Shown piece by piece: positions 18,213 to 52,988 of a stretch of 64,000 nt of DNA. How positions within the stretch are numbered: the first letter of the stretch is position 1; each line of letters opens with the position of its first letter. The notes under the pieces are model-generated. The model saw only the letters and a list, made by a program, of their open reading frames with translations. It had not been told where the DNA came from and did no database searches. The translations under genes were made by a program, and so were the position numbers. The DNA is from Roseomonas gilardii subsp. gilardii (GTDB lineage: Bacteria; Pseudomonadota; Alphaproteobacteria; Acetobacterales; Acetobacteraceae), in NCBI RefSeq assembly GCF_023078375.1, contig NZ_CP095554.1, positions 124,001 through 188,000 of the forward strand. The letters are read 5' to 3'.

Positions 18213-18510
18213 TCCTTCGGGGGACAAGGCTCCGCCGTCGACGCAGTGCGTCGACCCCCCGAACCCCCTTATCCGCCAGGAACCTGAGGTTCCTGGACCT
18301 CCCATTCGCTGGTCCCTACTGACGCCGGAGAGCATGGCTCTCCGGCGACGGCCGGTGCCGCCAGCGCTGAGAAGGGATTTTTTCTTTTCGGGAGCCCCGC
18401 TGATCCATCTGCGCTCAGGGATCGGACGGCAGACTGACGGCCGCCACCCGGACCAGCGAAAGCCCGGGGTCCGGGGGCGAGGCAGCGCCTTGCCCCTGGC
18501 GGCCAGCCAT
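18213..18510. repeat. Intergenic hairpin-array element, copy A
   Basis: Between the convergent aceA and dienelactone hydrolase genes. Modules in order: outer stem TTCGGGGG (18216-18223) with CCCCCGAA (18256-18263), enclosing a perfect inner stem GTCGACGC/GCGTCGAC (18237-18255); stem 2 CCAGGAACC/GGTTCCTGG (18276-18296); stem 3 GCCGGAGAGC/GCTCTCCGGC (18324-18346); a T-rich run at 18378-18388 followed by CGGGAGCCCCGCTGATCC; the conserved linker GCGAAAGCCCGGGGTCCGGG; and a last stem GGGGCGAGG/CCTTGCCCC (18474-18496). Order and linkers match copies B and C, but the internal GGGGACCG hairpin of those copies is absent here. Confidence 0.75.
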
Positions 18511-18530
18511 GAAGCGCCCCGCCCCGCCCT

Positions 18531-19442
18531 TCAGGCCAGGTTCTTGCGGAAATGCGCGAGGGTCCGATCCCAGGCGAGCTTCGCCGCCGCCTCGTCGTAG
18601 CGTGGCGTCGAGTTGTTGTGGAAGCCGTGCTGCGTGCCTGGGTAGATGAACGCCTCGTACGGGATGCCATTCGCCTTCAGCGCAGCCTCGTAGGCAGGCC
18701 ACATCGCATTGATGCGCTCGTCCTTCTCGGCATAGTGGATCAGCAGCGGCGCCTTGATGGAGGGCACGCCGGCGGTCTCCGGCGCGGCGCCATAGAAGGG
18801 CACAGCCGCCTTCACCTCCGCCCCAAGGGCGACCGCCAGCGTATTGGTGGTGGTGCCGCCCCAGCAGAAGCCGGTGATGCCAAGCTTGCCCGAGGACAAT
18901 TCATGCGCCTTCAGCCAGGTGGCGCCGTTGCGCATGTCCATGCGCAGCCTGCCCTGGTCCAGTCCCGCCTGCAGGTCGCGCCCGCCATCGTCGTTGCCGG
19001 GATAGCCGCCGGCCGGAAACAGCCCGTCCGGCGCCAGGGCCAGGAAGCCCTCGACCGCGAGGCGGCGGGCGACATCCTCGATATAGGGGTTCAGCCCCCG
19101 GTTCTCGTGGATCACCAGCACCGCCGGGAAAGGTCCCGTCCCACTCGGCTGCACCAGATAGCCGCGCATCGTGCCGGAGTTGCCGCCGGGTGAGGGATAG
19201 GTGACGTAGCGCGCCCGGATGCGCTCATCGGTGAAGGAGATGGTCTGCGCCTGGGCATAGCGGGGCAGCAGCGCCTGCGCCATGGCCAGGCCACCCGCGA
19301 TCATGGCGGCGCGGGCCAGGAACTCGCGGCGTTCGAGGCGACCATGGCAGTATTCGTCGTAGAGGTCGTAGACCCGCTGGTCGATCTCCATCTGTGTCAG
19401 CGGCGGCGGAACAGGCGTTTCCACTTCGATCATGTCGGGCAT
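18531..19442 (-). CDS. Dienelactone hydrolase family protein with Tat signal
   Basis: A 303-residue alpha/beta hydrolase of the dienelactone hydrolase (carboxymethylenebutenolidase-like) family. The nucleophile is C183 in GFCWGG, the acid D231 in AEKDE and the base H262 in TQHGFHN, a complete Cys-Asp-His triad. A twin-arginine signal (ERREFLARAAMIAGG, Arg at 38-39) with a long n-region precedes the domain, so the enzyme is probably exported folded to the periplasm. The frame extends upstream, but ATG 19442, with GGAGGAAA about 7 bp upstream, is preferred. It is oriented away from the alcohol dehydrogenase gene and convergent with aceA. The natural substrate is unknown; not all members act on dienelactone. 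Confidence 0.85.
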   Translation of the reverse strand: MPDMIEVETPVPPPLTQMEIDQRVYDLYDEYCHGRLERREFLARAAMIAGGLAMAQALLPRYAQAQTISFTDERIRARYVTYPSPGGNSGTMRGYLVQPSGTGPFPAVLVIHENRGLNPYIEDVARRLAVEGFLALAPDGLFPAGGYPGNDDGGRDLQAGLDQGRLRMDMRNGATWLKAHELSSGKLGITGFCWGGTTTNTLAVALGAEVKAAVPFYGAAPETAGVPSIKAPLLIHYAEKDERINAMWPAYEAALKANGIPYEAFIYPGTQHGFHNNSTPRYDEAAAKLAWDRTLAHFRKNLA

Positions 19443-19591
19443 CGGGCGTTTCCTCCGCTGGTGGCGCCCCGCCTGCGATCCGCGCTCAGGACATGCCGGG
19501 GGTAGTCTAGCCATCCCTCGCCATGCCACCAGAAGTGATCGCCGGCCTGACGGACCATCACGTTCCATTGATCGCCGTTCTTTTCCGCCAT
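19430..19591 (-). CDS. Possible 53-residue small protein overlapping the hydrolase start
   Basis: A short frame from ATG 19591 encodes MAEKNGDQWNVMVRQAGDHF followed by a Trp-rich WWHGEGW segment. Its stop overlaps the start region of the dienelactone hydrolase gene (13 bp). The first 35 residues have protein-like composition and mostly G/C third positions; the tail does not. No strong ribosome site is visible. I do not recognise a family. If real it would be translated just ahead of the hydrolase. Confidence 0.3.
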   Translation of the reverse strand: MAEKNGDQWNVMVRQAGDHFWWHGEGWLDYPRHVLSADRRRGATSGGNARCPT

Positions 19592-19733
19592 GCCCTGTTT
19601 CGGGAAGCCCTGGCTGAATGGCCGTCCCGGGACTAGATCCCCCGCGCCCGATCTTTCATCGCCCCTTCGTCTCGCGGCACCCGCACCAGGGCGGCCGCGA
19701 GCCTTTCCCACGCCTTCATGCGAGGACATCCGC

Positions 19734-20789
19734 ATGTTCACCTGCACCGGCTATGCCGCGGGGGCCGCGACGGCCCCGCTCGCCCCGATCACCTTCGAAC
19801 GCCGCGATCCGGGGCCCACGGATGTGCGGATCGACATCCTCTATTGCGGTGTCTGCCATTCCGACCTGCACCAGGCCCGCAATGAATGGCACAACACCCT
19901 CTATCCCTGCGTGCCGGGGCACGAGATCGTCGGCCGCGTCTCGGCGGTCGGCGATGCCGTCACCCGGTTCAGGCCGGGCGACATCGCAGGCGTCGGCTGC
20001 ATGGTCGATTCCTGCCGTGAATGTGCCAGTTGCCGGGAGGGGCTGGAGCAGTATTGCGAGCGCGGCTTCGTCCCCACCTATAACGGCGAGGACAGGCATG
20101 GCGGCGGACATACCTTCGGCGGCTATTCCCGCGCCGTGGTGGTGGACCAGGCCTTCGTGCTGAAGATACCCGGAAATCTGGACCTCGCCGCCGTGGCGCC
20201 GCTGCTCTGCGCCGGGATCACTACCTATTCGCCTCTGCGGCACTGGAAGGTCGGCCCCGGTCAGCGCGTCGGCATCGTCGGCCTGGGCGGGCTTGGCCAT
20301 ATGGCGGTGAAGTTCGCACGGGCCTTCGGCGCGCATGTCGTGCTCTTCACCACCTCCGTCAGCAAGGTCGAGGACGCTCTGCGCCTCGGCGCGCATGAGG
20401 TGGTGCTGTCGCGGGACGAAGCCGCGATGGCGGCCGAGGCCGGGCGCTTTGACTTCATCCTCGATGCCGTGGCGGCGCAGCACGACATCAACACCTATCT
20501 CAACCTGCTCAAGCGCGATGGCACGCTGGTACAGGTCGGCGCGCCGGAGCAGCCTCTGCCGGTCGCGGTGTTCAGCCTGATCTTCAAGCGCCGCAACTTC
20601 GCCGGCTCGCTGATCGGCGGCATCGCGGAAACGCAGGAGATGCTGGATTTCTGCGGCACGCACGGGATCACTTCGGATATCGAGATGATCCGCATGGACG
20701 AGATCAACACCGCCTATGAGCGCATGATCCGCTCCGACGTGAAGTACCGCTTCGTCATCGACATGGCGACGCTGCCCGAGGCCGCCTGA
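19734..20789 (+). CDS. Zinc-dependent alcohol dehydrogenase (YahK/cinnamyl-alcohol type)
   Basis: A 351-residue medium-chain NAD(P)-dependent alcohol dehydrogenase that interconverts aldehydes and primary alcohols. Catalytic-zinc residues lie in CGVCHSD (C38/C41 region) and GHE (H63-E64). The structural-zinc cysteines are C94, C97, C100 and C108 in CRECASCREGLEQYC. The cofactor-binding GLGGLGHMAVKFARA starts near 185. The CxxxxxGLEQYCERGFVPTYN block places it with YahK-like broad-range aldehyde reductases. The frame is open upstream, but ATG 19734 with GAGGA about 8 bp before it gives the family N-terminus. It is divergent from the hydrolase, with 291 bp between them, and is followed by a hairpin shared with the convergent DUF2189 gene. 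Confidence 0.88.
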   Translation: MFTCTGYAAGAATAPLAPITFERRDPGPTDVRIDILYCGVCHSDLHQARNEWHNTLYPCVPGHEIVGRVSAVGDAVTRFRPGDIAGVGCMVDSCRECASCREGLEQYCERGFVPTYNGEDRHGGGHTFGGYSRAVVVDQAFVLKIPGNLDLAAVAPLLCAGITTYSPLRHWKVGPGQRVGIVGLGGLGHMAVKFARAFGAHVVLFTTSVSKVEDALRLGAHEVVLSRDEAAMAAEAGRFDFILDAVAAQHDINTYLNLLKRDGTLVQVGAPEQPLPVAVFSLIFKRRNFAGSLIGGIAETQEMLDFCGTHGITSDIEMIRMDEINTAYERMIRSDVKYRFVIDMATLPEAA

Positions 20790-20795
20790 CGGGCC

Positions 20796-20817
20796 GGCCG
20801 GGGCGCAGGCCCCGGCC
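20796..20817. terminator. Bidirectional terminator-like hairpin
   Basis: GGCCGGGGC (20796-20804) pairs perfectly with GCCCCGGCC (20809-20817) around a 4-nt loop, in the 36-bp gap between two convergent genes. There is no T run on either strand. Confidence 0.45.
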
Positions 20818-20825
20818 GCTTCCCC

Positions 20826-21620
20826 TCACGCCACGATGCGCCGGTACAGGTGCCAGGTGGCATGGCCCAGGATGGGCATGACCACGGCCAGACCCACGAA
20901 GCAGGGCAGAGCCCCCAGCACCAGCAGCACCGCCACGATCAGTCCCCAGCCGAGCATCGGCCCCGGATTGGCGGCCATGGCCTGCATCGAGGTCCGCACC
21001 GCCTCTGCCACGCCCACATCGCGGTCCAGCAGCAGTGGGAAGGACACCGCCGAGATGCCCAGCACCAGCAGGGCGAACAGGAAGCCGGCGCCATTGCCGA
21101 GGAGCATCATGGTGCGCCCTTCCCGGGTCCGCAGCACATCGTGCAGGAAGTCGCCCAGCGAATCCGGCGGGGCGGCGCCCAGCGTGGCGACATAGATGGC
21201 CTTGGCCACGAAGAGCCAAGCGACGAAGATGGCGAACAGCACCACGCCCAGCGCCGCGATCGAGAAGAGCGAGGGCGAGCGCAGCACGTCGAAGGCATTC
21301 ACCCAGGATGCGGGCTCGCCACGCTCGCGGCGCCGACTGATCTCGTAGAGACCCACCGCCGCGACGGGTCCGAGCAGGCTGATGCCCGCCAGCATGGGGA
21401 AAAGCAGCGGCAACAGGTCGTATCCGAAGGCCGCGCGGGCGGCGACGAAACCGACCAGCGGATAGATCACGCCCAGGAAGACCAGCTGGGTCGGCGTTTC
21501 CCGGAAATCCCGCCATCCATCAGACAGCGCGGCGCGCAGGTCGTCATAGCCGATGTGGCGGATGGCGGGACGCGCCGACACCCCCATGCCGCCAGTGGCC
21601 GCGGACGAATTCCTCACCAT
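20826..21620 (-). CDS. DUF2189 family integral membrane protein
   Basis: A 264-residue inner-membrane protein with about six hydrophobic segments (about residues 46-66, 72-93, 120-145, 180-200, 222-250). The conserved N-terminal signature ALSDGWRDFRETPTQLVFLGVIYPLVGF and the GPVAAVGLYEISRRRERGE loop identify DUF2189. The family has no assigned biochemical role; in alphaproteobacteria it is sometimes near respiratory or redox genes. It is convergent with the alcohol dehydrogenase. The start at ATG 21620 leaves about 40 non-conserved residues before the domain. A long gene-free region lies upstream. Confidence 0.8.
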   Translation of the reverse strand: MVRNSSAATGGMGVSARPAIRHIGYDDLRAALSDGWRDFRETPTQLVFLGVIYPLVGFVAARAAFGYDLLPLLFPMLAGISLLGPVAAVGLYEISRRRERGEPASWVNAFDVLRSPSLFSIAALGVVLFAIFVAWLFVAKAIYVATLGAAPPDSLGDFLHDVLRTREGRTMMLLGNGAGFLFALLVLGISAVSFPLLLDRDVGVAEAVRTSMQAMAANPGPMLGWGLIVAVLLVLGALPCFVGLAVVMPILGHATWHLYRRIVA

Positions 21621-22369
21621 TCTCTCTACCCTCCCGAAGACAGGGGCCCGATGCGGGGCCCGGGTGCAGGGGCTGGGCGGGAACCAGGTGGCACATGGCC
21701 AGGAGAGTGGTCGGGTCGATCAGGCCCCCTGACGGGGTCCATCGCTGCTCGTGGCGCCGTGCTCCATCGTTCGGTCTGCCCTTCGCCGGGCCTGTCGCGG
21801 GGAGGCGGCGGTCCGGCTGCCTCGATCTGGGCGGAACCGGAACGGTTTGCCAGCCTTTCCAGCTCGAGGGCGGGAGGAGGAACGGTCATTTCATGGTGAG
21901 GACCGAGCCCGATTCGGGCTTCCAGGACCATGGGTGTCAGAGAGTTACAATATCGTGATCGGGGCCATCAGAACCGGTTCAATCAATCCCCGATCCACCA
22001 TGGTGGCGCTCAGGATAATGCGCCCCCTTCCCGAACATATCCAAGGCAGACGCCAGAATAATTCGCTTTTCCCGAGGCGCTTCCGGCCCTCTCTCCTGAG
22101 GCATTCCGCCGATCATCTTTCCTGGAATGTCGCCTGCACAGCGCATGTCTGTCCCGACAGGAGTGGACAATCCGGTTCATCCATTCTACATCGCGGCTAT
22201 CGTTATTTACGGCAGCGACACATCATTGTGTCATTTTCAGGGCAGAAAGGTCCGTATCGGATCTTTCCGCCCGTTCTATGCTCATAGCCGTCGTGCCTGC
22301 CGGCGACAGCTCGCATGGAGGATCGAGTGCCATCCCAGGGCGGATGGCCAACTGGGAGACGCATTCTTG
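21621..22369. other. 749-bp gene-free region upstream of proV, lower GC
   Basis: No credible gene is visible. The right half (about 21930-22260) is clearly less GC-rich than the flanks. Notable sites are a near-perfect palindrome AGCCCGA/TCGGGCT at about 21906-21920, CTGTCCCGACAG at about 22147-22158, and a hairpin GACACA-TCAT-TGTGTC at 22217-22232 followed by ATTTTC. These lie where promoters and operators for the divergent DUF2189 and proVWX units must be. I could not fix a promoter with confidence. Confidence 0.4.
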
Positions 22370-23650
22370 ATGGATACGGCAACGAACGGGCCGTCCCCCG
22401 GGGCGCCCGCGACTACTTCCCTTCCGGCGGATACCGCCGCCGACGCGAGTACCGAACCGCAGGTGAAGATCGCCCTGCGCGACGTCTACAAGATCTTCGG
22501 GGACCATCCCGACCGCGCCATGGAAATGGTGCGCCAGGGCCGCGGCAAGGACGAGATCCATGCCGAAACCGGTTGCACGCTGGGCGTCAACGGCGCGAAT
22601 TTCGACATCATGGCGGGCGAGATCTTCGTGATCATGGGCCTCTCCGGCTCCGGCAAGTCCACCCTGCTGCGCCTGCTCAACCGCCTGATCGAGCCGACCT
22701 CCGGCTCCATCCTGGTGGATGGCCAGGACATCACCCGCATGTCGAAGCGCGAGCTGACCGAGCTGCGCCGCCGCGACATGAGCATGGTCTTCCAGTCCTT
22801 CGCCCTGCTGCCCAACCGCACGGTGCTCGACAACGCCGCCTTCGGTCTGGAGGTCGCGGGCGTGGCGGAGGCCGAGCGCCACGCCAAGGCCATGGCGGCG
22901 CTGGAGGGCGTGGGCCTCGCCGCCTATGCCCAGAGCCGCCCGGACCAGCTTTCCGGCGGCATGAAGCAGCGCGTCGGCCTCGCCCGCGCCCTGGCCAGCG
23001 AGCCGACCGTGCTGCTGATGGACGAAGCCTTCTCGGCCCTCGACCCACTGATCCGCACGGAGATGCAGGACGAACTGCTGCGCCTTCAGTCCGAGCACAG
23101 CCGCACCATCATCTTCGTCAGCCACGACCTCGACGAGGCCATGCGCATCGGCGACCGCATCGCCATCATGCAGCACGGCAACGTGGTGCAGGTCGGCACG
23201 CCCGACGACATCGTGGCGAACCCGGCCAACGACTATGTCCGCTCCTTCTTCCGCAACGTGGACGTGTCGCAGGTCTTCCGCGCCGGCGACGTGGCCCGCG
23301 ACGCGCAGGTCGTGCTGATCGAACGCAAGGGCCTCGCCGTCCCGGCGGCGCTGGAGCGCATGCGGCGCCACGACCGGGACGTCGCCATCGTGGTGGGGCG
23401 CGACCGCCGCTATCACGGCATGGTCAGCGCGGAATCCCTCTCCCGCGCCGCTCGCAGCGGCGAGGCGGACCCCTACCACCGCGCCTTCCTCTCGGAGATC
23501 GAGCCGATCGACGCCGACCAGACCCTGTCGGACGTGCTCGGCCGCGTCGCGCAGAGCCCCTGGCCCGTGCCGGTGGTGGATGCGCAGAAGCGCTACATCG
23601 GCTCCATCAGCAAATCCGCCCTGCTGATGACCCTGGACCGCGCGGCCTGA
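22370..23650 (+). CDS. proV: Glycine betaine/choline-type ABC transporter ATP-binding protein (ProV/ChoV)
   Basis: A 426-residue ABC ATPase for uptake of quaternary-ammonium osmolytes (betaine, choline or proline betaine). It has Walker A GLSGSGKST near 89, the signature LSGGMKQRVGLARAL near 192, Walker B TVLLMDEAFSALDP near 213, and a C-terminal pair of CBS domains from about residue 295. In OpuA/ProV proteins these domains sense ionic strength. The YKIFGDHPDRAMEMVRQGRGKDEI region is diagnostic for ProV. The frame is open upstream; ATG 22370 is chosen because GGGAGA lies about 11 bp before it and conserved sequence begins near residue 27. ProW and ProX genes follow. Choline rather than betaine specificity cannot be excluded. 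Confidence 0.9.
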   Translation: MDTATNGPSPGAPATTSLPADTAADASTEPQVKIALRDVYKIFGDHPDRAMEMVRQGRGKDEIHAETGCTLGVNGANFDIMAGEIFVIMGLSGSGKSTLLRLLNRLIEPTSGSILVDGQDITRMSKRELTELRRRDMSMVFQSFALLPNRTVLDNAAFGLEVAGVAEAERHAKAMAALEGVGLAAYAQSRPDQLSGGMKQRVGLARALASEPTVLLMDEAFSALDPLIRTEMQDELLRLQSEHSRTIIFVSHDLDEAMRIGDRIAIMQHGNVVQVGTPDDIVANPANDYVRSFFRNVDVSQVFRAGDVARDAQVVLIERKGLAVPAALERMRRHDRDVAIVVGRDRRYHGMVSAESLSRAARSGEADPYHRAFLSEIEPIDADQTLSDVLGRVAQSPWPVPVVDAQKRYIGSISKSALLMTLDRAA

Positions 23651-23723
23651 GGCGCGCTGCCCGCGGCAGGCGCCGCGGGCCCCAGAGCGCGCATTCCAGG
23701 CCCACAGCACCGGATCACAGACC

Positions 23724-24644
23724 ATGAACATGCATCTCGGCATCGGCGAAGCCGCCGACACCGCCGTCAACTACATCCTCGACCATTTCATGCCCTTCCT
23801 CGATGGCATCGCCACGGTGATCGGCTTCGTCACCGGCACCATCAAGGCCGCCCTGACCGGCGTCCCGCCGCTGGCCGCCGTGGCGGTGATCGTGCTGCTC
23901 GCGCTCTGGCGCGTGGGCTGGAAGTTCGCCCTCTTCGCCGTGGCCGCGCTCTTCGTGATCCTGGGCATGGACCTGTGGGAGCGCACGATGGAGACCCTCT
24001 CCCTCGTCCTTTCCGCCACCGTGATCGCCATCGTGGTCGGCGTGCCGCTGGGCATCGCCATGGCGCGCAACGAGGCCGTGGCGCTCGTCGTCCGCCCCGT
24101 GCTCGACCTGATGCAGACCATGCCGGCCTTCGTCTACCTGATCCCGGCCGCCATGTTCTTCGGCCTGGGCGCCGTGCCCGGCACCATCGCCACGGTGATC
24201 TTCGCCATGCCGCCCGTGGTGCGCCTGACCAATCTCGGCCTGCGCCAGGTGAACAGCGAGTTCATCGAGGCCGGCCTCGCCTCCGGCTGCACGCCCGGCC
24301 AGTTGCTGATGAAGGTGCAGCTCCCGAACGCGCTGCCCTCCATCATGGCCGGCATCAACCAGACGATCATGCTCTCGCTCTCGATGGTGGTGATCGCCTC
24401 CATGATCGGCGCGGGCGGCCTGGGCAACACCGTGCTCACCGGCATCCAGCGCCTCGATGTCGGCACCGGCTTCGAAGGCGGCCTCGCCGTCGTGATCCTC
24501 GCCGTGCTGCTCGACCGCATCACCCAGAGCTTCGGTCAGAAGCGCCCCTCGCTGCTCCCCGGCCTGCGCGCACTCTTCGCGCGCAACACCACGGACGGCG
24601 AGGCGAAGCAGGGCAACGCCGCCGCCCGCCTCGCGAGCCACTGA
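23724..24644 (+). CDS. proW: Betaine/choline ABC transporter permease (ProW/ChoW)
   Basis: A 306-residue permease with about seven hydrophobic segments. The BPD_transp_1 domain carries VLDLMQTMPAFVYLIPAAMFFGLG near 130-153 and the EAA loop EAGLASGCTPGQLLMKVQLPNALP near 178-201 that contacts ProV. The GAGGLGNTVLTGIQRLDVG segment near 232 is typical of ProW/OpuAB. It lies 73 bp after proV and 35 bp before proX, a standard operon. The protein forms the homodimeric channel in the inner membrane. Confidence 0.9.
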   Translation: MNMHLGIGEAADTAVNYILDHFMPFLDGIATVIGFVTGTIKAALTGVPPLAAVAVIVLLALWRVGWKFALFAVAALFVILGMDLWERTMETLSLVLSATVIAIVVGVPLGIAMARNEAVALVVRPVLDLMQTMPAFVYLIPAAMFFGLGAVPGTIATVIFAMPPVVRLTNLGLRQVNSEFIEAGLASGCTPGQLLMKVQLPNALPSIMAGINQTIMLSLSMVVIASMIGAGGLGNTVLTGIQRLDVGTGFEGGLAVVILAVLLDRITQSFGQKRPSLLPGLRALFARNTTDGEAKQGNAAARLASH

Positions 24645-24679
24645 CCGTCCCACACGAACCGCAGAAAGGAAGACGCCCC

Positions 24680-25567: not shown

Positions 25568-25576
25568 CCGTGCACC

Positions 25577-26748: not shown

Positions 26749-28917
26749 ATGTCCAAGACGAGCTACCGCACCGAAGGTGGATTGACGATCCGGCGGGAAA
26801 CCCTCGCCGCCGATGCCGCCACGCTGATGCCGGACCTGGCGAAGCGCCTCGACCGCCAGCGCGGCGTGCTGCTCTCCTCCTCCTTCGAGTTCCCCGGCCG
26901 CTACACCCGGCTCGACATGGGTTTCGCCGACCCGCCGGTGATGCTCACCGCCCGGGGCCGCGAGGTCACTGTCACCGCGCTCAACGAGCGTGGCGAGATC
27001 CTGCTGCGCGCCATCGCCCCCGCCCTGCGCGGCATGGCGGAGGTCGAGGAATCGGAAGCCTCCGCGACCCGCCTCTTCGCCCGCCTCCGCCAGCCGGAAG
27101 GCCGCTTCCCGGAGGAGCAGCGCTCCCGCCAGCCTTCCGTCTTCTCCATGCTGCGCCGCCTGGGCGCGCTGTTCCGGTCGCGCGAGGACGAGCATCTCGG
27201 CCTCTACGGCGCCTTCGGCTACGATCTGGTCTTCCAGTTCGAGCCGATGACGCTCCGCCTGCCCCGCGCCGCGGACCAGCGCGACCTCGTCCTCTTCCTG
27301 CCGGACGAGGTGCTGGTGGTGGACCACATGCGCGGCACCGCCGAGCGCCACCGCTACGAGTTCACCGTGGACGGCACCGCCACCGAGGACTTGCCGCGCG
27401 AGACGCCCGCCGATCCCTATCGTCCCGGTACGGAGCAGGATGGCGAGATCCGCAGCGACTACGGCCCCGGCGAATATGCCGCGATGGTCGAGCGTGCGCG
27501 CGAGGCCTTCGCCCGCGGCGACCTGTTCGAGGTCGTGCTGGGCCAGACCTTCGCCACCCCCTGCGCCGATGCGCCGAGCGATCTCTTCGACCGCCTGCGC
27601 CGCGTGAATCCCGCCCCCTATGGCGCGCTGATGAATCTCGGCGAGGGCGAATTCCTCGTCGCCGCCAGCCCCGAGATGTTCGTGCGCGTCGAAGGCAGGC
27701 GCATCGAGACCTGCCCGATCAGCGGCACGATCAAGCGCGGCCGCGACGCGCTGGAGGATGCCGAGAACATCCGCACCCTGCTCAACTCCCGCAAGGAGGA
27801 GAGCGAGCTGACCATGTGCACGGATGTGGACCGCAACGACAAGTCGCGCGTCTGCGTGCCCGGCAGCGTCAAGGTCATCGGCCGACGCCAGATCGAGATG
27901 TATTCCCGCCTGATCCACACGGTGGACCATGTGGAGGGCGAGCTGCTGCCGGAGATGGATGCGCTGGACGGCTTCCTGTCCCATGCCTGGGCCGTCACCG
28001 TCACCGGCGCGCCCAAGACCTGGGCGATCCGCCATGTCGAGAACGAGGAGCGCTCCGCCCGCCGCTGGTACGGCGGCGCCATCGGGCGCACCACCTTCGA
28101 CGGCAACATGAACACCGGCCTGACGCTGCGCACCATCCGCCTCAAGGACGGCGTGGCCGAGGTGCGCGCCGGCGCCACGCTGCTGCATGACAGCGATCCG
28201 GCGGCCGAAGAGGCGGAGTGCCGCCTGAAGGCCAGCGCGATGTTCGCCGCCATCAAGGGCGCCGCGCCCGCCGCGCCGCCGCAGCGCCCGGCGCCCGCGG
28301 AGCTGCTGGGCCACAGCCCGCGCGTCCTCCTCGTCGATCACGAGGACAGCTTCGTGCACACCCTGGCCAGCTATTTCCGCGCCGCCGGGGCGGAGGTCAC
28401 CACCATGCGCCCCGAACTGGCGCGGGAACTGCTGCGCGAAGGCGCCGACGGCATCGACCTCGTCGTCCTCTCCCCCGGCCCGGGCCGCCCCTCGGATTTC
28501 GCGATGACCGAGACGCTGGACCTGCTGGTGGAGCGCAGGCTGCCTGCCTTCGGCGTCTGTCTCGGCTTGCAGGGGATCGTCGAGCATTTCGGCGGCGCGC
28601 TGGACGTGCTGGCCAAGCCGATGCACGGCAAGCCCTCGCTGATCCACCGCAGGGCGAGCCGCTTCCTGCAGGACCTGCCGGAGGAATTCGCCGTCGGTCG
28701 CTATCACTCCCTGCATGCGCGCCGCCTGGTGCTGCCGGAGGAGATCGCCGTCACCGCGGAAACCGAGGATGGCGTCGTCATGGCCATCGAGCACAAGCGC
28801 CTGCCCATCGCGGCAGTACAGTTCCACCCGGAATCGCTGATGACGGACCCGAACCGCATCGGCATGCCACTGGTCGCCGCCATGCTCACCCGTCTCACCC
28901 GCGCCAACGCCGGCTGA
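26749..28917 (+). CDS. trpE(G): Anthranilate synthase, fused components I and II, TrpE(G)
   Basis: A 722-residue bifunctional enzyme converting chorismate and glutamine to anthranilate, the first committed step of tryptophan synthesis. Residues 1 to about 500 form component I, with LNSRKEESELTMCTDVDRND near 345 and GAPKTWAIRHVE and YGGAIGRTTFDGNMNTGLTLRT near 420-460, the chorismate-binding signatures. After a Pro/Ala linker (about 505-522) the class I glutamine amidotransferase begins at RVLLVDHEDSF. Its nucleophile is C604 in FGVCLGLQG and its His is H693 in FHPES. The fusion is characteristic of rhizobia, Azospirillum and related alphaproteobacteria. Expression is expected to be attenuated by the upstream leader. 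The order trpL-trpE(G) is complete; other trp genes are elsewhere. Confidence 0.95.
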   Translation: MSKTSYRTEGGLTIRRETLAADAATLMPDLAKRLDRQRGVLLSSSFEFPGRYTRLDMGFADPPVMLTARGREVTVTALNERGEILLRAIAPALRGMAEVEESEASATRLFARLRQPEGRFPEEQRSRQPSVFSMLRRLGALFRSREDEHLGLYGAFGYDLVFQFEPMTLRLPRAADQRDLVLFLPDEVLVVDHMRGTAERHRYEFTVDGTATEDLPRETPADPYRPGTEQDGEIRSDYGPGEYAAMVERAREAFARGDLFEVVLGQTFATPCADAPSDLFDRLRRVNPAPYGALMNLGEGEFLVAASPEMFVRVEGRRIETCPISGTIKRGRDALEDAENIRTLLNSRKEESELTMCTDVDRNDKSRVCVPGSVKVIGRRQIEMYSRLIHTVDHVEGELLPEMDALDGFLSHAWAVTVTGAPKTWAIRHVENEERSARRWYGGAIGRTTFDGNMNTGLTLRTIRLKDGVAEVRAGATLLHDSDPAAEEAECRLKASAMFAAIKGAAPAAPPQRPAPAELLGHSPRVLLVDHEDSFVHTLASYFRAAGAEVTTMRPELARELLREGADGIDLVVLSPGPGRPSDFAMTETLDLLVERRLPAFGVCLGLQGIVEHFGGALDVLAKPMHGKPSLIHRRASRFLQDLPEEFAVGRYHSLHARRLVLPEEIAVTAETEDGVVMAIEHKRLPIAAVQFHPESLMTDPNRIGMPLVAAMLTRLTRANAG

Positions 28918-28929
28918 CGGCGCGCTTCG

Positions 28930-29256
28930 TGGCCCTGGGGAAAGGCGCCGCCTTTCCCCAGGCCCCTATCCGCCAGGACCCTGCGGGCCCTGGACCCGGT
29001 TCGCTGGCTCTTGCTGTTGGCTGGATCGCGCCAGAGCGCCATGCGCTCCGGCAACTGCGGGCGCCACCAGCGCGGGCAGGGTGTTTTTCTTCTTTTCGGG
29101 CGCCCCACCGATCCGCCTGCTCCCAATGATCGGGCCATAAGACAACGGCCACCACCGGCACCCACGAAAGCCCGGGGTCCGGGGACCGGCTTCGGTCCCC
29201 GGCGGAGTGGGGGTCTCGGGAGCGAGACGGAGCCTTGCCTCCGGGGGCCAGCCAGG
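28930..29256. repeat. Intergenic hairpin-array element, copy B
   Basis: Modules in order after trpE(G): stem 1 CCTGGGGAAAGGCG/CGCCTTTCCCCAGG (28934-28962); stem 2 CCAGGACCC/GGGCCCTGG with one mismatch (28973-28993); stem 3 GCCAGAGCGC/GCGCTCCGGC (29030-29052); a T-rich run at 29082-29097; linker CCCACGAAAGCCCGGGGTC (29161-29179, identical in copy C); stem GGGGACCG/CGGTCCCC with GCTT loop (29181-29200); and a weaker end stem to GGGGGCCAGCC. It has the same linkers and order as copies A and C. It is the only copy whose flanking genes point the same way. Confidence 0.75.
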
Positions 29257-29285
29257 CGGCAGGATGCCCGCCACGGCAAATCCAT

Positions 29286-29342: not shown

Positions 29343-30050
29343 ATGGCGGACCATCCCTCACCACCACGCCACGCCCGCTGGCGCCGCCGCGATGCGCTGC
29401 TGCTCCCCGCCGCGCTCGCCGCCGCCACCCCCGCGCGGGCCGAGGGGCGGGTGATCGACCTGCTGCTGGTCCTGGCCATCGACGCCTCCGGCAGCATCGA
29501 TGCCGACGAGTTCCGCCTGCAGCGCGAGGGCTGCGCCCAGGCCATCACGCATCCCGACGTGCTGGCCGCCATCAATTCCGGTCCGCTCGGCGCCATCGGC
29601 ATCGCCGTGGTGGAATGGGGCGCCCCGGGCGGCGCGGCCACGGTGGTGGACTGGCACCGCATCGACGGTGCCGCCGCCGCCCGGGACATGGCCGGCGCCG
29701 TGATGGCCGCGCCCCGTTCGCCGCAATCCTGGAACGCCATCGGCGACGCGGTGGACCATTCCGCCCGCCTCCTGGCTACGGCGCCCTGGCGGGCCGACGA
29801 GCAGGTGATTGATCTGTCCGGCGACGCGCCCGACATGCGCAGCCTCCGTCCCATCGAGACGGCGAGGCGCGAGGTCGAGGCCCGGGGCATCGTGATCAAC
29901 GCCCTGGCCATCGAGGGCGGCCGGCCTGGCCTGCGCCAGACCTACGAAGCCACCGTCATCGCCGGCCCGGGTGCCTTTGTCATGACAGCGGAATCCCGTG
30001 CCGACTTCGCCCGCGCCCTCCGCGCCAAGCTGATCCGGGAGATCGCCTGA
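29343..30050 (+). CDS. DUF1194 domain (VWA-like) secreted protein
   Basis: A 235-residue protein with an N-terminal export signal (ARWRRRDALLLPAALAAATPARA, Tat-like RRR before the hydrophobic core). A von Willebrand A-like DUF1194 domain follows: VLAIDASGSIDADEF near 45 contains the DxSxS metal-adhesion-type motif, and VIDLSGDAPDM near 152 matches the second conserved strand. Members are periplasmic or secreted and of unknown function, probably metal-dependent binding proteins. ATG 29343 has AGGAGG 8 bp upstream. The frame extends upstream into the hairpin element, but that part is not conserved. It stands alone. Confidence 0.82.
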   Translation: MADHPSPPRHARWRRRDALLLPAALAAATPARAEGRVIDLLLVLAIDASGSIDADEFRLQREGCAQAITHPDVLAAINSGPLGAIGIAVVEWGAPGGAATVVDWHRIDGAAAARDMAGAVMAAPRSPQSWNAIGDAVDHSARLLATAPWRADEQVIDLSGDAPDMRSLRPIETARREVEARGIVINALAIEGGRPGLRQTYEATVIAGPGAFVMTAESRADFARALRAKLIREIA

Positions 30051-47802: not shown

Positions 47803-49185
47803 TTGCCGGCGCCGCCTGATCCCCTGCCGCCTGGTGAAAACCGGCGGCGGGTCGGCCCGGGCGCCATCCCGCCCCCTTGCCCGTCCCTCTGGAAGGCCCG
47901 GCTGCAAGCCGCCGCACGGGCCACCGCCCTGGCGCTGCTGATGGCCCCCGCCTCCGCCACCATCCTCGCCGCCGCGCCCCGGAAGCCGGCCGAGCGCCCG
48001 CCCGGCCGCGAGGACCTGCACCGGGCGGAGCAGGAGGCGGCACAGGCGAAGGACCTCGCCGAGGCCGCCGCCCGCGCCTCCCGCGAGGCCCGGGAATACG
48101 AGGAACGCCTGTCCGCCGAGCGCGCCGAGCTGGGCCGCCGTGCCGTCGCGGCCGAGGAGGCGCTGGACGAGGCGCAGAGCCAGCTCGACGCCGCTCAGGC
48201 CGACCTCGCCGCCGCCGAGGCCGCGCTGCGGGAACAGTCGGCCCGGTTGGCCCCCCTCCTGCCCGCGATGCGGCGCATGTCCGCCTGGCCGGCCGAGACG
48301 CTGCTCGCTCTGCCCGTGCCTCCGGAGGAGGCGCTGCGCGGCGCCCTGGTGCTGCGTGGCCTGGGGCGGCGCCTGTCCGAGGAAGCAACCGCCTACCGCA
48401 TCGCCCGCGAGCAGACCGGACAGGCCCTGGCCCGCGCCGCCGCCCGGCGCGAGAACCTCGCCCAGGCCCGCGACCGCGCCCGCGCCGCCAGCCAGGCGGT
48501 GGAGGCCAGCCTGTCCGAGGCCCGCACCGCGCGCGGGCAGGCCGATCACGCCGAGGAGCGGGCGGCGCAGCGGGCCGCCAGCCTCGCCGCCCGGGCCGGC
48601 AACTTGCGCGGCGCCATCGCCCGGCTGGAGCGCGAGGCCGCCGCCCGTGCCGAGCGGGAGGCGAAGGAGAAGGCCGCCCGCGAGGAAGCCACCCGGCAGG
48701 CCGCCCAGGCAGCGGCCACGGCCCGGGAGGATGCCCGCCGCGCCGCCCGCCGCAACCGGGAGGACGAGGAGCAGGTCGCCGCCCTGCCCTCCGCCCCCGC
48801 CATCCCCCGTGGCCGGGGCCGCGCCCTGCCCGTGGCCGGCCGCGTCATCTCCCAGTTCGGCGCCGGCGGCACCACCGGCCAGACCTGGTCCACGCCCCCC
48901 GGCGCCCGCGTCGTCAGCCCCTGCTCCGGGCAGGTGGCCTTCGCTGATACATTTCGTTCCTATGGCCTGCTGTTGATCATGGATTGCGGTGACGGGTACC
49001 ATGTGGTCCTGTCTGGTCTCGATCGCCTGGACGCCGGGGTGGGGCAGAAGGTCTCGGCGGGCGAGGCGGTCGGCCAGATGGGGCGTCCCTCTTCCGGGCG
49101 CCCCAGCCTCTACGTCGAACTCCGGCGCAGGGGACAGGCGGTGGACCCGCGTCCCTGGCTGGCCGGCAATGGCCGCACGGGATAG
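47803..49185 (+). CDS. envC: Murein hydrolase activator, EnvC/LytM family
   Basis: A 460-residue exported protein. A signal peptide lies at about residues 30-55, after a long n-region. An extended Ala/Glu/Arg-rich coiled coil (about 68-300) is followed by a degenerate M23 LytM domain from about 345 (GRVISQFGAGGTTGQTW...YVELRRRGQAVDPRPWL). The zinc ligands HxxxD and HxH of active M23 peptidases are missing, as in EnvC, which activates amidases at the division site rather than cutting peptidoglycan itself. The only start in frame is the TTG directly after the gpmI stop, with GGCGGAGG 4 bp upstream. Confidence 0.82.
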   Translation: MPAPPDPLPPGENRRRVGPGAIPPPCPSLWKARLQAAARATALALLMAPASATILAAAPRKPAERPPGREDLHRAEQEAAQAKDLAEAAARASREAREYEERLSAERAELGRRAVAAEEALDEAQSQLDAAQADLAAAEAALREQSARLAPLLPAMRRMSAWPAETLLALPVPPEEALRGALVLRGLGRRLSEEATAYRIAREQTGQALARAAARRENLAQARDRARAASQAVEASLSEARTARGQADHAEERAAQRAASLAARAGNLRGAIARLEREAAARAEREAKEKAAREEATRQAAQAAATAREDARRAARRNREDEEQVAALPSAPAIPRGRGRALPVAGRVISQFGAGGTTGQTWSTPPGARVVSPCSGQVAFADTFRSYGLLLIMDCGDGYHVVLSGLDRLDAGVGQKVSAGEAVGQMGRPSSGRPSLYVELRRRGQAVDPRPWLAGNGRTG

Positions 49186-49231
49186 GGGCGCCTTCTCTGA
49201 TTTTTTCCTTGTCTCGGGGAGCCTCGGGCGG

Positions 49232-50623
49232 ATGCGGCGCAAGTTCCGGACAGCAACGGGTGTGGCGGTGGCCTTTGTCGCGGGGGCCGTCGCGGGACCC
49301 GTGGTGACTTCGACGGTGGTGCCGGCGCTGGCCCAGGATTCCGGCCGGGCCGACACCTACCGGCTTCTCAACCTCTTCGGCGATGTCTTCGAGCGCGTGC
49401 GCGCCGACTATGTCGATCCGGTCAACGACCGGGATGCGATCGAGAACGCCATCAACGGCATGCTCCAGGGCCTCGACCCGCACAGCTCCTACATGAACGC
49501 GAAGAACTTCCGCGACATGCAGGTGCAGACGCGCGGCGAGTTCGGCGGCCTCGGCATCGAGGTCACGCAGGAAGGCGGCTACGTCAAGGTCATCTCGCCC
49601 ATCGACGACACGCCCGCCCAGCGCGCCGGCATCAAGCCCGGTGACCTGATCACCAACCTCAACGGCACCTCCGTCCAGGGCATGAGCCTGCAGGACGCGG
49701 TGGAGCAGATGCGCGGCGAGCGTGGCTCCTCCATCCGCCTGACCATCCGGCGGGAGGGCGTGACCACGCCCATCGACCTCAGCCTGACGCGCGAGGTGAT
49801 CCGCCCGCAGGTGGTCCGCGCCCGGCTGGAAGGCAACGACATCGCCTATATCCGCCTCACCTCCTTCAACGAGCAGACCGATCCCGGCCTGCGCAAGACC
49901 TTCCAGCAGCTCAAGTCCCAGGCGCCGAACGGGCTCAAGGGCCTGATCCTCGACCTGCGCAACAACCCGGGTGGGCTGCTCGATCAGGCGATCCAGGTCA
50001 GCGACGACCTGCTCGACCAGGGGGAGATCGTTTCCACCCGCGGCCGCCGGCCCGAGGACGCACAGCGCTGGAACGCCCGCGCCGGGGACATCACCAACGG
50101 CCTGCCGGTGGTGGTGCTGATCAATGGCGGCTCCGCCTCGGCCAGCGAGATCGTGGCCGGCGCGTTGCAGGACCACCGCCGCGCGGTGGTGCTGGGCGTG
50201 AAGTCCTTCGGCAAGGGCTCGGTGCAGACGGTCATGCCGCTGCCCGGCAACGGCGCCATCCGCCTGACCACGGCGCGCTACTACACCCCCTCCGGCCGCT
50301 CCATCCAGGCCACCGGGATCGAGCCGGATGTGGAGGTGCTCGGCCAGCGCGTGGACGCCGCCCAGCGCGACCGCGAGGCCGATCTTCGCCACGCCCTCAA
50401 GCACCCCGAGACGTCCTCCGCCACCCCGGTGGTGCCGCTGCCGCCGCTGAACCTGCCGCAAGGCTTGCTCGACCGCATCCAGCACACGCCGCCCGAAGGC
50501 GCCCCTGCCTTCGACCCGACCAAGCCGGAGACGGACTTCCAGTTGCAGCAGGCCCTGGTGCTGGTGCGTGGCATGGCCGCGACGCCGCAGCAGGCCCCGG
50601 CGCAGCGCCGCGCCAGCCGCTGA
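49232..50623 (+). CDS. ctpA: S41 family C-terminal processing protease CtpA
   Basis: A 463-residue periplasmic serine protease. A signal peptide lies at residues 1-31 (cleavage near ALA-QD), and a PDZ domain at about 90-180 (GGLGIEVTQEGGYVKVISPIDDTPAQRAGIKPGD). The S41 catalytic domain has LILDLRNNPGGLL near 240, nucleophile S305 in GGSASASEIVAG and general base K328 in SFGKGSVQ. It trims C-termini of envelope proteins and is often regulated with EnvC-type activators. The frame is open upstream inside envC, but ATG 49232 gives the signal peptide. A 13-bp hairpin follows the stop. Confidence 0.93.
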   Translation: MRRKFRTATGVAVAFVAGAVAGPVVTSTVVPALAQDSGRADTYRLLNLFGDVFERVRADYVDPVNDRDAIENAINGMLQGLDPHSSYMNAKNFRDMQVQTRGEFGGLGIEVTQEGGYVKVISPIDDTPAQRAGIKPGDLITNLNGTSVQGMSLQDAVEQMRGERGSSIRLTIRREGVTTPIDLSLTREVIRPQVVRARLEGNDIAYIRLTSFNEQTDPGLRKTFQQLKSQAPNGLKGLILDLRNNPGGLLDQAIQVSDDLLDQGEIVSTRGRRPEDAQRWNARAGDITNGLPVVVLINGGSASASEIVAGALQDHRRAVVLGVKSFGKGSVQTVMPLPGNGAIRLTTARYYTPSGRSIQATGIEPDVEVLGQRVDAAQRDREADLRHALKHPETSSATPVVPLPPLNLPQGLLDRIQHTPPEGAPAFDPTKPETDFQLQQALVLVRGMAATPQQAPAQRRASR

Positions 50624-50637
50624 TGCGCTGACGCGGC

Positions 50638-50669
50638 CCGGTCCATGGCCGGAACGGGCCATGGACCGG
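50638..50669 (+). terminator. Terminator-like hairpin after ctpA
   Basis: CCGGTCCATGGCC (50638-50650) pairs perfectly with GGCCATGGACCGG (50657-50669) around a 6-nt loop, 14 bp after the stop. It is not followed by T residues. A second, weaker CCGGAT/ATCCGG stem lies just downstream. Confidence 0.55.
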
Positions 50670-51039
50670 CCGGCAGGACCGGATGCCAGCATCATCCGGC
50701 CGGCCGAAGGATGGGGAACCGGCCCTGCGCCGCATGACCCGTCCGTGGCCAACCGCCCCGGCGATGGATCACCATCGCCTCGGGAACCCCGCAAGAACCT
50801 CCGTCCTTGCAACTTCCGGCTGCCGCATCAGGGTCGTTTACCGGGCATAAACGCCAAGGACGCCATAAAATTGTGGAAAGTGGCGGACCTGCCTGGAAAT
50901 GGCCTCATTGATGAGGATACTCTCAAAAAGAGAGACTGCGGCGGAAGATCCGTCGCAGGAAGCCAGAAATCTGCCCCGGACCAGCCCCGATGCGCTGTCG
51001 CATCCCGGCTTTCCGGGCCAGGGCGAACGGACGGAAACC
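50670..51039 (+). other. Gene-free stretch before the deacetylase-like gene
   Basis: No gene is apparent. The segment around 50830-50930 is AT-richer and includes small palindromes (GTTTA...TAAAC, CTCATTGATGAG, TCTCAAAAAGAGA), probably holding the promoter for the deacetylase-like gene and rppH. An in-frame ATG at 50899 would extend the next protein by 47 residues, but that part looks unlike the rest. Confidence 0.35.
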
Positions 51040-52152
51040 ATGCGCGAGGCGATGGCTGGCGGCCCGGAAGCCAGCGAATGGACCGATGGCTGGGCCTGGC
51101 TGAGGCGCTTCTGGGGCTTCGTCCTGACCGCCACCCTGCTGGGCCTCGGCACGCTCGCCTATCTCGGCCCGCCGCCGCCCCGGGAAGCCGCCGCGCAGCC
51201 CCCTGCCGTCGTCACCCCCGCCGCTCTCCCTGACGCCGCCGCGCCGGTTGTCCCCGCCACGGCCGAGGCCCAGGCCGCCACCCTGACCGACCTCCAAGAC
51301 CCCGCCCCCCCGCAGAACCAGGGGCAGCCAGGTCCGATCCCGCCACCGGACCCGCAATTGCTGGAGGCGACGCATCTCGGCGCCCTGCCCCGCGTGGCGC
51401 CGGATGGCCGGACCTCGATCCGGACCTATGGCCGCGCCTTCGCCCGTGGCGAGAAGCGGCCGCGCATCGCCATCGTGGTCGGCGGGCTGGGCCTCCATGC
51501 GGGGCTGAGCGACGAGGCCATCCGCCGCCTGCCGCCCACGACCGGCCTCGCCTTCAGCCCCTATGCCCAGAATATCCAGCCCCTGCTGAACCGCGCCCGC
51601 GCCCGGGGGATGGAGATGCTGGTGGCCCTGCCCATGGAGCCCGCCGGCTATCCGTCCAACGACCCGGGGCCCCGCGCCCTCCTCACCACGCTTCCGGCCG
51701 CCGAGAATGCGGAGCGGCTGCGCTGGGTGCTGACCCGGATGCAGGGCTATGTCGGCGCGGTCGGCGCCCTGGGCGGCATGCGCGGCGAACGTTTCGCCCA
51801 GGCGCCGGAACTGCTGGCCGGAGTGCAGGACGTGCTGCGCGACCGCGGCCTGCTCTATCTCGACCCGCGGCCCGAGGCGACCAACAGCAACCGCGCCTGG
51901 GGCCGCACCGCCGATGTGGTGATCGACGAGCCCGCGACGCGGGAGGGCGTGGAGCGCCGCTTGCAGGAACTCGAGCGTGTTGCCAAGGAATGGGGCTCGG
52001 CCCTCGGCGTGGCCGGCGATGCCTCGCCGGTGCTGCTGGACCGTATCACCAGTTGGGCGACAGGGTTGGAACAGCGGGGGATCGTGCTGGCCCCCGTCAC
52101 CGCCATCCTCCGCCGCCCTGAGATCCCGCAGAAGGAAACTGCCACGCGATGA
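51040..52152 (+). CDS. Divergent polysaccharide deacetylase family protein (YibQ-like)
   Basis: A 370-residue envelope protein. One transmembrane segment at about residues 23-42 is followed by a Pro/Ala-rich linker. The divergent polysaccharide deacetylase domain (YibQ, DUF610-type NodB-like fold) starts near 140. Blocks are RPRIAIVVGGLGLHAGLSDEAIRRLP, LVALPMEPAGYPSNDPGPRALLT and GAVGALGGMRGERFA. The strict metal-binding residues of active NodB deacetylases are not evident, as usual for this group. ATG 51040 has GGACGGA 6 bp upstream. An upstream ATG (50899) is possible. It follows ctpA and overlaps rppH by 4 bp, the gene order common in alphaproteobacteria. Confidence 0.83.
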   Translation: MREAMAGGPEASEWTDGWAWLRRFWGFVLTATLLGLGTLAYLGPPPPREAAAQPPAVVTPAALPDAAAPVVPATAEAQAATLTDLQDPAPPQNQGQPGPIPPPDPQLLEATHLGALPRVAPDGRTSIRTYGRAFARGEKRPRIAIVVGGLGLHAGLSDEAIRRLPPTTGLAFSPYAQNIQPLLNRARARGMEMLVALPMEPAGYPSNDPGPRALLTTLPAAENAERLRWVLTRMQGYVGAVGALGGMRGERFAQAPELLAGVQDVLRDRGLLYLDPRPEATNSNRAWGRTADVVIDEPATREGVERRLQELERVAKEWGSALGVAGDASPVLLDRITSWATGLEQRGIVLAPVTAILRRPEIPQKETATR

Positions 52153-52643
52153 GCGACCTGCCCTACCGCCCCAATGTCGGTGCCGTGCTCTTCAACGCGG
52201 ACGGGCTGGTGCTGGTGGCGCGCCGGGCGGACCAGCCGCATGGGGAGGCCGGCGCGGGCGCCTGGCAACTGCCCCAGGGCGGGCTGGACGAGGGCGAGGA
52301 GCCGCGCCAGGCCGTGCTGCGCGAACTGGCCGAGGAGATCGGCACCGACAAGGCCGAGATCCTGGCCGAACATGATGAATGGCTGCGCTACGACCTGCCG
52401 GAGCATCTGATCGGCAGGATCTGGGGCGGCCGCTGGCGTGGGCAGAAACAGCGCTGGTTCGCCCTGCGCTTCACGGGCCAGGATTCCGACATCCGCCTGG
52501 ATGCCGACGCCCATCAGGAATTCGACGCCTGGCGCTGGGCCGCGCTGGAGGAACTCCCCGGCCTCGCCGTCCCCTTCAAGCGCCCGATCTACGAGGCCCT
52601 GGCCCGCGCCTTCGCCCGCTTCGCCGTTCCCATGGCGGAGTGA
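52149..52643 (+). CDS. rppH: RNA pyrophosphohydrolase (Nudix)
   Basis: A 164-residue Nudix hydrolase that removes pyrophosphate from the 5' end of mRNAs to start decay. The complete Nudix box GGLDEGEEPRQAVLRELAEEIG lies at about 43-64. YRPNVGAVLFNADGLVLVARR near 4-24 and WRGQKQRWFALRFTG near 95 are typical RppH segments. ATG 52149 overlaps the deacetylase-like stop (ATGA), so translation is coupled. It ends the gpmI-to-rppH run and is followed by hairpin-array copy C. Confidence 0.93.
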   Translation: MSDLPYRPNVGAVLFNADGLVLVARRADQPHGEAGAGAWQLPQGGLDEGEEPRQAVLRELAEEIGTDKAEILAEHDEWLRYDLPEHLIGRIWGGRWRGQKQRWFALRFTGQDSDIRLDADAHQEFDAWRWAALEELPGLAVPFKRPIYEALARAFARFAVPMAE

Positions 52644-52659
52644 TCTGGCTTTACCCTTG

Positions 52660-52988
52660 GCTCCCCGGGGGCAAGGCTCCGCCTTTCCCCCGGCCCCCCA
52701 TCCGCCAGGACCCTGCGGGCCCTGGACCCGGTTCGTTGGTTCCTGCTGCGGCCGGATCGCGCCGGAGAGCTCGGCTCTCCGGCGACTGCCAATGCCACCA
52801 GTGCGGCCAAGGCGTTTTTCTTCTTTTCGGGAGCCCCGCTGGTCCACCTGCGCCAGGGATCGGGCTGTGGAACAACGGTATCCGCCGGCGCCCACGAAAG
52901 CCCGGGGTCTGGGGACCGGCTTCGGTCCCCCATCCTGGTCATGGGCGGAGAGGGTCCGGGAGAGGCGGCGCCTCTCCCGGGGGCCAAC
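52660..52988. repeat. Intergenic hairpin-array element, copy C
   Basis: This is the most complete copy, between the convergent rppH and xylanase genes. Stem 1 CCGGGGGCAAGGC/GCCTTTCCCCCGG (52665-52693, one mismatch); stem 2 CCAGGACCC/GGGCCCTGG (52705-52725); stem 3 GCCGGAGAGC/GCTCTCCGGC (52761-52783, perfect); T-rich run 52815-52828; linker CCCACGAAAGCCCGGGGTC (52891-52909); stem GGGGACCG/CGGTCCCC (52911-52930); last stem CCGGGAGAGGCG/CGCCTCTCCCGG (52956-52980). Compared with B, stem 1 has G-C where B has T-A, and stem 3 has A-T where B has C-G, so pairing is preserved. Confidence 0.78.

Follow-up and report, generated by a model that had tools for sequence, protein, structure and literature searches.

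The 64,000-nucleotide stretch of the Roseomonas gilardii subsp. gilardii genome that we analyzed (hereafter the window; bases 124001–188000 of the 4.2 Mb contig C1 of its own genome, G000) contains several intergenic arrays of hairpins, three of which, denoted here A, B and C, had been described in an earlier note made from the sequence. We conclude that these arrays are probably copies of a non-autonomous mobile DNA element that resembles miniature inverted-repeat transposable elements (MITEs) and REPINs, i.e., inverted pairs of repetitive extragenic palindromic (REP) units. Among the three roles that had been suggested, namely a structured 3' RNA, a bidirectional transcription barrier and a non-autonomous mobile element, the last is the best supported. 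The family is an interspersed repeat of approximately 330–400 bp in this Roseomonas genome, and the gene caller placed no gene within the window copies.

Read in one orientation, the element consists of an outer hairpin, the CCCCNNTCCGCC linker, an inner hairpin, TTCGTTGG, the core (a 25-nt hairpin and a T-rich run), CCAACGAAAGCCCGGGGTC, a second inner hairpin, the GGCGGANNGGGG linker and a second outer hairpin. Apart from differing arms, the right part repeats the left part as its reverse complement, and both represent one double-hairpin module of about 65 nt with the consensus GGTCCRGG-hairpin-GGCGGANNGGGGGTCCGGGGG-hairpin. When 1.2 Mb of the own genome is searched with a covariance model of this module (R1; E <= 0.01), 64 modules are detected, of which 46 form 23 pairs and 18 are solitary. 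All 23 close pairs are arranged (-,+), with cores of 124–198 nt, and no pair shows another arrangement. The linkers are conserved in sequence across genera. One solitary half element (G000:C1:192809-192859) lies directly behind a gene and is found at the same site in two other Roseomonas species, G003 and G004; its left flank is 96–97% identical in the three species.

The further copies on which the earlier note had staked its proposal are readily found. The own genome contains 65 and G003 27 occurrences of the 15-mer CGAAAGCCCGGGGTC, with at most one mismatch allowed, against one match each for the control, and a left-end motif occurs 51 times in G000, 65 times in G003 and 240 times in the sister species G013 (control 0). 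A BLAST search of the own genome with copy C, in which 40 of 241 first-look candidates were scored, gives at least 57 matches. The top 40 of these reach E <= 8.6e-67; the remaining 17 (E 9e-9 to 4e-4) coincide with the sites of these 40 or are adjacent to them. In 400 kb of each genome, a hidden Markov model (HMM) of the element identifies 19 (G000), 11 (G003), 15 (G004) and 21 (G013) elements or fragments. Furthermore, a 23-base motif of the element was detected in 13 stretches of a genome collection, all from Roseomonas mucosa ATCC BAA-692.

Copy C matches 13 of 40 genomes at E <= 0.001 (own genome included) and a G013 copy matches 9 of 80 genomes of the taxonomic family, in both cases mostly in parts. 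In an order-wide search with strict filters and 86 candidates scored per genome, R1 matches 13 of 60 genomes (own included), all from one family and from 7 of 24 genera. In a class-wide sample of 96 (53 candidates per genome), the own genome is the sole match of R1; neither the 94 genomes of other families nor the one further member of the family in the sample gives a match. The elements of other genera have the same inverted modules with a different core. Eighteen loci from other genera (10 + 8) were picked by model matches, not at random, and 15 of these were used in the comparison of core stems, the three omitted being two modules that are solitary and a pair that has no long stem; 14 of the 15 have a perfect core stem of 19–25 bp, with arms that partly differ between loci, and the fifteenth, L271, has a core stem with one mismatch, as judged by eye. 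A plasmid or phage origin was considered and rejected, given that 72,556 plasmid records yield a single match, which covers 21% of the query, and that no phage record matches. There is no publication on such repeats in Roseomonas among the matches listed in a literature search outside whose coverage most subscription journals fall.

Evidence of mobility comes from the matching of the flanks of G000 elements to the sister genomes. No element is present at the orthologous G003 sites of A and B, where the gaps measure 111 bp (A) and 137 bp (B), compared with spans of 396 and 416. The corresponding G004 site contains a fragment in the case of B and is not cleanly bounded in the case of A; copy C is present in both species. 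Among 58 copies, the one closest to C is a paralog 86 kb away that is 90% identical, and its site is free of the element in both G003 and G004.

The ends of the element are best seen in G013, where the copies are flanked by terminal inverted repeats (TIRs) of 16 bp, TACNGACGGCGGGATG. We examined 33 full copies in this genome, 13 in the first 400 kb and 20 at loci from the first 100 left-end motifs listed, leaving out elements with an HMM score below 250. Both TIRs, at 4 mismatches or fewer, are present in 17 of these copies, nine of which are 412–414 bp long, and in 12 of the 17 the 3-bp flanks are identical and directly repeated, reading TGA/TGA or TCA/TCA (5 of the 9 copies from the first stretch and 7 of the 8 from loci fetched after the TIRs had been defined). 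Where TSA (that is, TGA or TCA) is found on both sides (n = 13), the two are direct in 12 copies and inverted in one. Exact combinations of TSA and TIR occur at 26 sites in G013 (control 0). In 12 of the 17 TIR copies, the stop codon of a flanking gene is located exactly at one edge; this is little above the 43–55% expected from a TSA target if only stops and gaps are allowed, and therefore special targeting of stop codons was rejected and no such mechanism is claimed here. In some elements of other genera (the loci L272, L269 and L268), as judged by eye, each end seems to be adjacent to a TGA or TAG, in inverted rather than direct orientation.

The location of the elements relative to genes is strongly biased. 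We placed 66 elements with an HMM score of at least 100 in four genomes, using our own gene caller and counting orthologous elements apart; 35 lie between convergent genes, 22 in tandem gaps in the sense orientation, 9 in tandem gaps in antisense and none between divergent genes. Element-free gaps longer than 100 bp comprise 529 tandem, 247 divergent and 82 convergent ones, giving Fisher P values of 1.2e-5 for the lack of elements in divergent gaps among the non-convergent ones and 8.5e-17 for the convergent excess, in a comparison where element-bearing gaps are long because the element itself adds length.

We propose that the element, with its two inverted double-hairpin modules around a core and its short TIRs at the boundaries, would be inserted by a putative transposase acting in trans at TGA or TCA, with duplication of the three bases. 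In a genome of 70–74% GC, most stops are TGA, and the TSA sites that could be hit without harm would be these codons and the short interval that follows them; copies would therefore persist at the 3' ends of genes but not in promoters. The G013 stretch has 329 stops, 267 of them TGA, and about one further TSA per element-free gap, so that stop codons constitute approximately half of the targets where insertion does no harm. With TSA as the target, much of the gene-end location would be accounted for, and there would be a simple reason for the presence of repeats at gene ends, with TGA stops serving as landing sites in GC-rich genomes.

The hairpin arms vary in a concerted manner. We aligned 27 modules, 22 from four Roseomonas genomes, one from a fifth genome of the genus and four from other genera; because the modules were picked from members of the family, the alignment shows how arms vary and not whether the hairpins exist. 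Standard pairs account for 96.2% of its cells, against 57.6 and 61.5% when the partners are slid by one column, and 14 of 20 pairs have changed on both sides. The modularity, fixed linkers, changing arms and two-sided changes noticed earlier are confirmed. In the 58-sequence alignment, 595 of 605 cells of the core hairpin helix are Watson-Crick, and the most variable pair, in an inner hairpin, is CG in 30 copies, GC in 24 and AT in two, with one mismatch and one gap; we lean toward copying or wholesale hairpin exchange as the source of this near lack of intermediates. The paired changes themselves stand; as a sign of structural selection, the meaning originally attached to them, they are ambiguous, since arm-to-arm correction would yield the same pattern. 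Under the mobile-element mechanism, the hairpins would matter as DNA shapes: when one arm changes, the other would follow, and the arms may be kept complementary by selection for shape or by copying from the other arm when the strand folds. When tested against a tree-based null with independently evolving columns, the 58 copies yield nine significant column pairs; four of these are stem pairs, all within palindromic end hairpins, and no long-range helix is supported.

The same data bear on the alternative that the arrays are structured RNAs at transcript 3' ends, such that convergent transcripts end in, or are stabilized by, the hairpins and selection on the RNA fold keeps the arms complementary. 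In line with this possibility, each of the 66 placed elements adjoins at least one gene 3' end, and among the 31 tandem copies there is a preference for the sense orientation, seen in 22 (one-sided P 0.015). Copy C, when folded as RNA, is more stable than 100 of 100 shuffles on both strands (z -4.3 and -5.4); folded as DNA, it has a z of -3.0, and one of 100 shuffles is as good. In the four end hairpins, read in module orientation (left helices on the minus strand), there are 50 G-U against 32 A-C cells, a weak excess (P 0.06) among cells that are not independent. Against an RNA, G-U does not clearly exceed A-C at the pairs that the folds of the two strands share (108 vs 97 and 32 vs 33), so that the strand asymmetry lends no support to the structured 3' RNA that had been suggested; the tree-based null supports only the palindromic end hairpins (four of nine pairs) and no long-range helix; and the presence of the element varies between species. 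No sequence in the window matches Rfam at the gathering score, and thus a known Rfam RNA was rejected. An intrinsic terminator (a GC hairpin followed by a T run) was likewise rejected, given that none is found in copy C, the only copy scanned; the scan of positions 52000–53600 gave one site, outside the element, against 0.6 expected. A bidirectional transcription barrier would fit the location, with 0 of 66 elements between divergent genes, but not the lack of an intrinsic terminator in copy C. The palindromes are established, an RNA strand is not demonstrated, and we consider a 3'-end RNA unlikely.

Several observations weigh against the interpretation of the arrays as copies of a mobile element that inserts at TSA. 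First, five of the nine significant column pairs are not stem pairs and the 20 G013 copies taken alone give none. Second, the junctions of the empty sites are inexact, because the intergenic DNA has diverged, and orthologous copies are approximately as diverged as paralogs, suggesting that the activity may be old. Third, 16 of the 33 G013 copies have no TIR pair at the cut-off of 4 mismatches. In the window's own subtype, the TIRs are weak and the ends degenerate: with a first guess of the TIRs, none of 37 copies has matching target site duplications, and a joint scan of both ends shows no clear peak. In this subtype, the distances between stop codons and the right hairpin anchor have a peak at exactly 45 nt (5 of 30), and TSA is found at exactly this distance in 8 of 65 copies. 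The three copies with TSA both 25–30 nt to the left and 43–47 nt to the right all read TCA/TCA, as would be expected if this subtype, too, used the 3-bp target; these cases are weak and may be due to chance, because 11 of 12 right-end TSA are TCA. Fourth, the search for the transposase was negative in the families covered. Y1_Tnp (PF01797) is found in none of 15 genomes of the genus, with 5 of 14 control genomes positive, and therefore a REP family driven by a REP-associated tyrosine transposase (RAYT) was rejected. Among 27 DDE_Tnp_1_2 loci of G013 and G000, this being the sole family searched besides Y1, none has a TIR pair within 2 mismatches; the scattered single TIR matches at these loci have 3–4 mismatches, and no chance level was computed for them. 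Finally, the mobile-element reading does not account for the uneven distribution of the elements along the chromosome. In the first guess of the TIRs, the left end of the window subtype reads CGTCCGGCG; its likeness to a REP tag may be due to chance.

The chromosomal bias is strong: 61 of the 65 motif copies are located in one half of C1, whereas 2000 random draws gave 39.5 on average and never more than 52. The rich part begins at about 3.99 Mb, passes through 0 and ends at about 2.0 Mb. In the 1.2 Mb sampled, this part (680 kb) has 41.2 elements per Mb and the remainder (520 kb) 1.9, an approximately 20-fold difference, with a border that was set after the data had been seen and a rich part that includes the dense 400 kb block around the window. 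Convergent gene pairs are equally dense (12.1 and 12.3 per 100 kb) in the two parts, which are also similar in stop usage and coding share, and thus the bias goes beyond what target supply explains. When intergenic regions are compared with one another, 55 of the 302 located in the rich part have repeat partners, as do 4 of the 227 outside it. In G003, 25 of 27 motif matches fall within 3.47–4.33 and 0–0.92 Mb, i.e., 1.78 Mb of a 4.33 Mb contig. The GC skew, which turns positive at about 0.22 Mb, suggests that the replication origin is located there; no ParB-type sites are found in the stretches scanned. Local hopping was rejected, given that similar copies are not neighbors (Mantel r -0.03, P 0.61, 44 copies).

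The confinement to one part of the chromosome, in G000 at these densities despite equal supplies of convergent pairs as well as in G003, is what would be expected if the arrays were chromosome-organizing sites, with a cruciform or hairpin bound by a nucleoid protein or topoisomerase. Weighing against organizing sites are the many sites that differ between species, an orientation that is random relative to replication (31 of 65 copies co-oriented, under an assumed origin and terminus) and the wider spread in G013 among the first 100 of 240 places listed, all below 3.13 Mb. We regard a role of this kind as very improbable.

A different form of activity may be seen in another genus. The loci L280 (G117:C1:1089056) and L270 (G074:C13:6425), from two species of one genus, occupy the same gap and carry the element in opposite orientations. 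The two elements are identical at 174 of 181 positions (96.1%) when one is inverted and at 134 of 180 otherwise, with flanks that are 93.5 and 92.6% identical. The simplest reading is an inversion in place, the alternative being separate insertions in opposite directions. The differences between the two include one compensated pair in the core stem.

It might be argued that the arrays are inert relics, with neither function nor present mobility, and that the palindromes last only through mutual correction of the arms. The two-sided changes almost without intermediates, the perfect core stems in 14 of the 15 loci of other genera and the compensated pair that separates the two 96% identical copies are all compatible with such correction. 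Inert DNA would not be expected to keep its linker sequence conserved across genera or to undergo lineage-specific insertions, and an inversion in place implies activity of some kind; accordingly, we consider relics rather unlikely. The more elaborate possibility is that the element is recognized by its shape throughout the family, that its arms are rewritten by templated correction, that it flips in place and that its spread or survival in Roseomonas is limited to one part of the chromosome by a factor tied to a chromosomal domain. The enzyme or enzymes involved would then read the hairpin geometry and the fixed linkers, leaving the letters of the arms free. As a whole, this scheme appears doubtful to us.

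The family resembles both REPs and MITEs and is set apart from them by the inverted double-hairpin ends, the fixed linkers, the length, the GC content, the TSA flank and the lack of Y1. By MITE standards, the G013 copies have TIRs (17 of 33) and target duplications (12 of 17), and insertion polymorphism is apparent from filled and element-free orthologous sites in different species, with inexact junctions; by REP standards, the paired inverted units lie at gene 3' ends and no RAYT is found in the 15 genomes of the genus. IS5-family miniature derivatives have a TNA-type target; the present family is similar to them in its 3-bp target of this kind and dissimilar in that no transposase locus with these ends is found among DDE_Tnp_1_2, one family searched. 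REPs are reported to lie between unidirectional and convergent genes and to have alternative complementary residues in their stems, and CGTC repeats are reported to be missing in Acetobacteraceae (PMC3733652). The similarity to REPINs and bacterial interspersed mosaic elements (BIMEs) consists in inverted pairs of palindromic units, many copies, location in convergent or unidirectional gaps and complementary stem alternatives; the present module is a double hairpin of about 65 nt with long fixed linkers, whereas theirs is a tagged palindrome of 20–40 bp, and, unlike REPINs and BIMEs, the family lacks Y1 in the 15 genomes of the genus and has TIRs with 3-bp flanks in G013. Bacterial MITEs are described as shorter than 200 bp, mostly A+T-rich and with TA at the termini (PMC2229807). 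The family shares with Correia/NEMIS, ERIC, RUP and CIR the small size, the non-coding and intergenic character, the TIRs, the target duplication and the strong folding (PMC2229807), and the G013 ends also begin with 5'-TA. In contrast to these MITEs, it is 330–400 bp long and GC-rich, duplicates TSA, and has inverted double-hairpin ends and copy-specific arms. The family is of interest as a case of palindromic repeats lacking the Y1 (RAYT) transposase, the usual companion of REP elements. It also provides, in many genomes, a natural set of palindromes whose linkers are nearly identical and whose arms vary freely, with which selection for shape can be tested against arm-to-arm copying.

Within the window, copy A (18197–18521, plus strand; nhmmer match at G000 142197–142521) lies between the convergent genes 16492–18150 (+) and 18531–19442 (-), copy B (28916–29268, plus; G000 152916–153268) between the tandem genes 26749–28917 (+) and 29343–30050 (+), and copy C (52642–53000, plus; G000 176642–177000) between the convergent genes 52149–52643 (+) and 53058–54179 (-). 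The limits given in the earlier note are narrower than these HMM limits. Inspection of the sequence agrees with the note on the order of stems and linkers shared by the three copies, on stem 1 (T-A in B, G-C in C) and on stem 2 (AA/TT in A); in stem 3, the C-G of B and the A-T of A and C are also as described, except that B has one A-C break.

The left module of copy C (52665–52728, minus strand; R1 72.3 bits) comprises the outer hairpin at 52665–52693, a linker and the inner hairpin at 52705–52725, and its right module (52924–52982, plus; 47.7 bits) has the outer hairpin at 52956–52980 and an inner hairpin at 52911–52930 that is partly beyond the match. Between the modules, all on the plus strand, are the core hairpin (stem 3; 52760–52784), the T-rich run (52815–52828) and the GAAAGCCCGGGGTC linker (52896–52909). 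In copy B, the modules are at 28934–28996 (minus; 74.2 bits) and 29176–29244 (plus; 66.0 bits), with the core hairpin, which contains the A-C mismatch, at 29029–29053 (plus); the last stem of this copy is partly decayed.

Copy A is a deletion variant. It lacks the hairpin next to the GAAAGCCCGGGGTC linker as well as the subsequent linker, GGCGG, and the alignment shows a truncated right module without the inner hairpin (18450–18499, plus; R1 28.3 bits, E 0.0018). The core hairpin of A is at 18323–18347 (plus), and its left module (18232–18299, minus; 48.2 bits) carries an extra palindrome at 18237–18255, inserted in the outer hairpin (stem 1).

The window also contains a fourth array, D (11181–11386), which was missed when the arrays were listed as three. 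It is located between the convergent genes 10010–11164 (+) and 11402–12094 (-) and consists of two module matches, 11181–11236 (minus; 31.1 bits) and 11329–11386 (plus; 39.3 bits), in the same inverted arrangement around a different core, like the type found in other genera. The core stem of D (11242–11321), as read from the sequence, is formed by the arms 11242–11264 and 11299–11321, with two mismatches.

The palindrome nested in the outer hairpin of copy A, GTCGACGCACTGCGTCGAC in module orientation, is also present in L010 and in a G003 copy (at 127218 of the 400 kb stretch). Nested palindromes of this kind occur in some copies of two species, as if a hairpin had been inserted into a hairpin.

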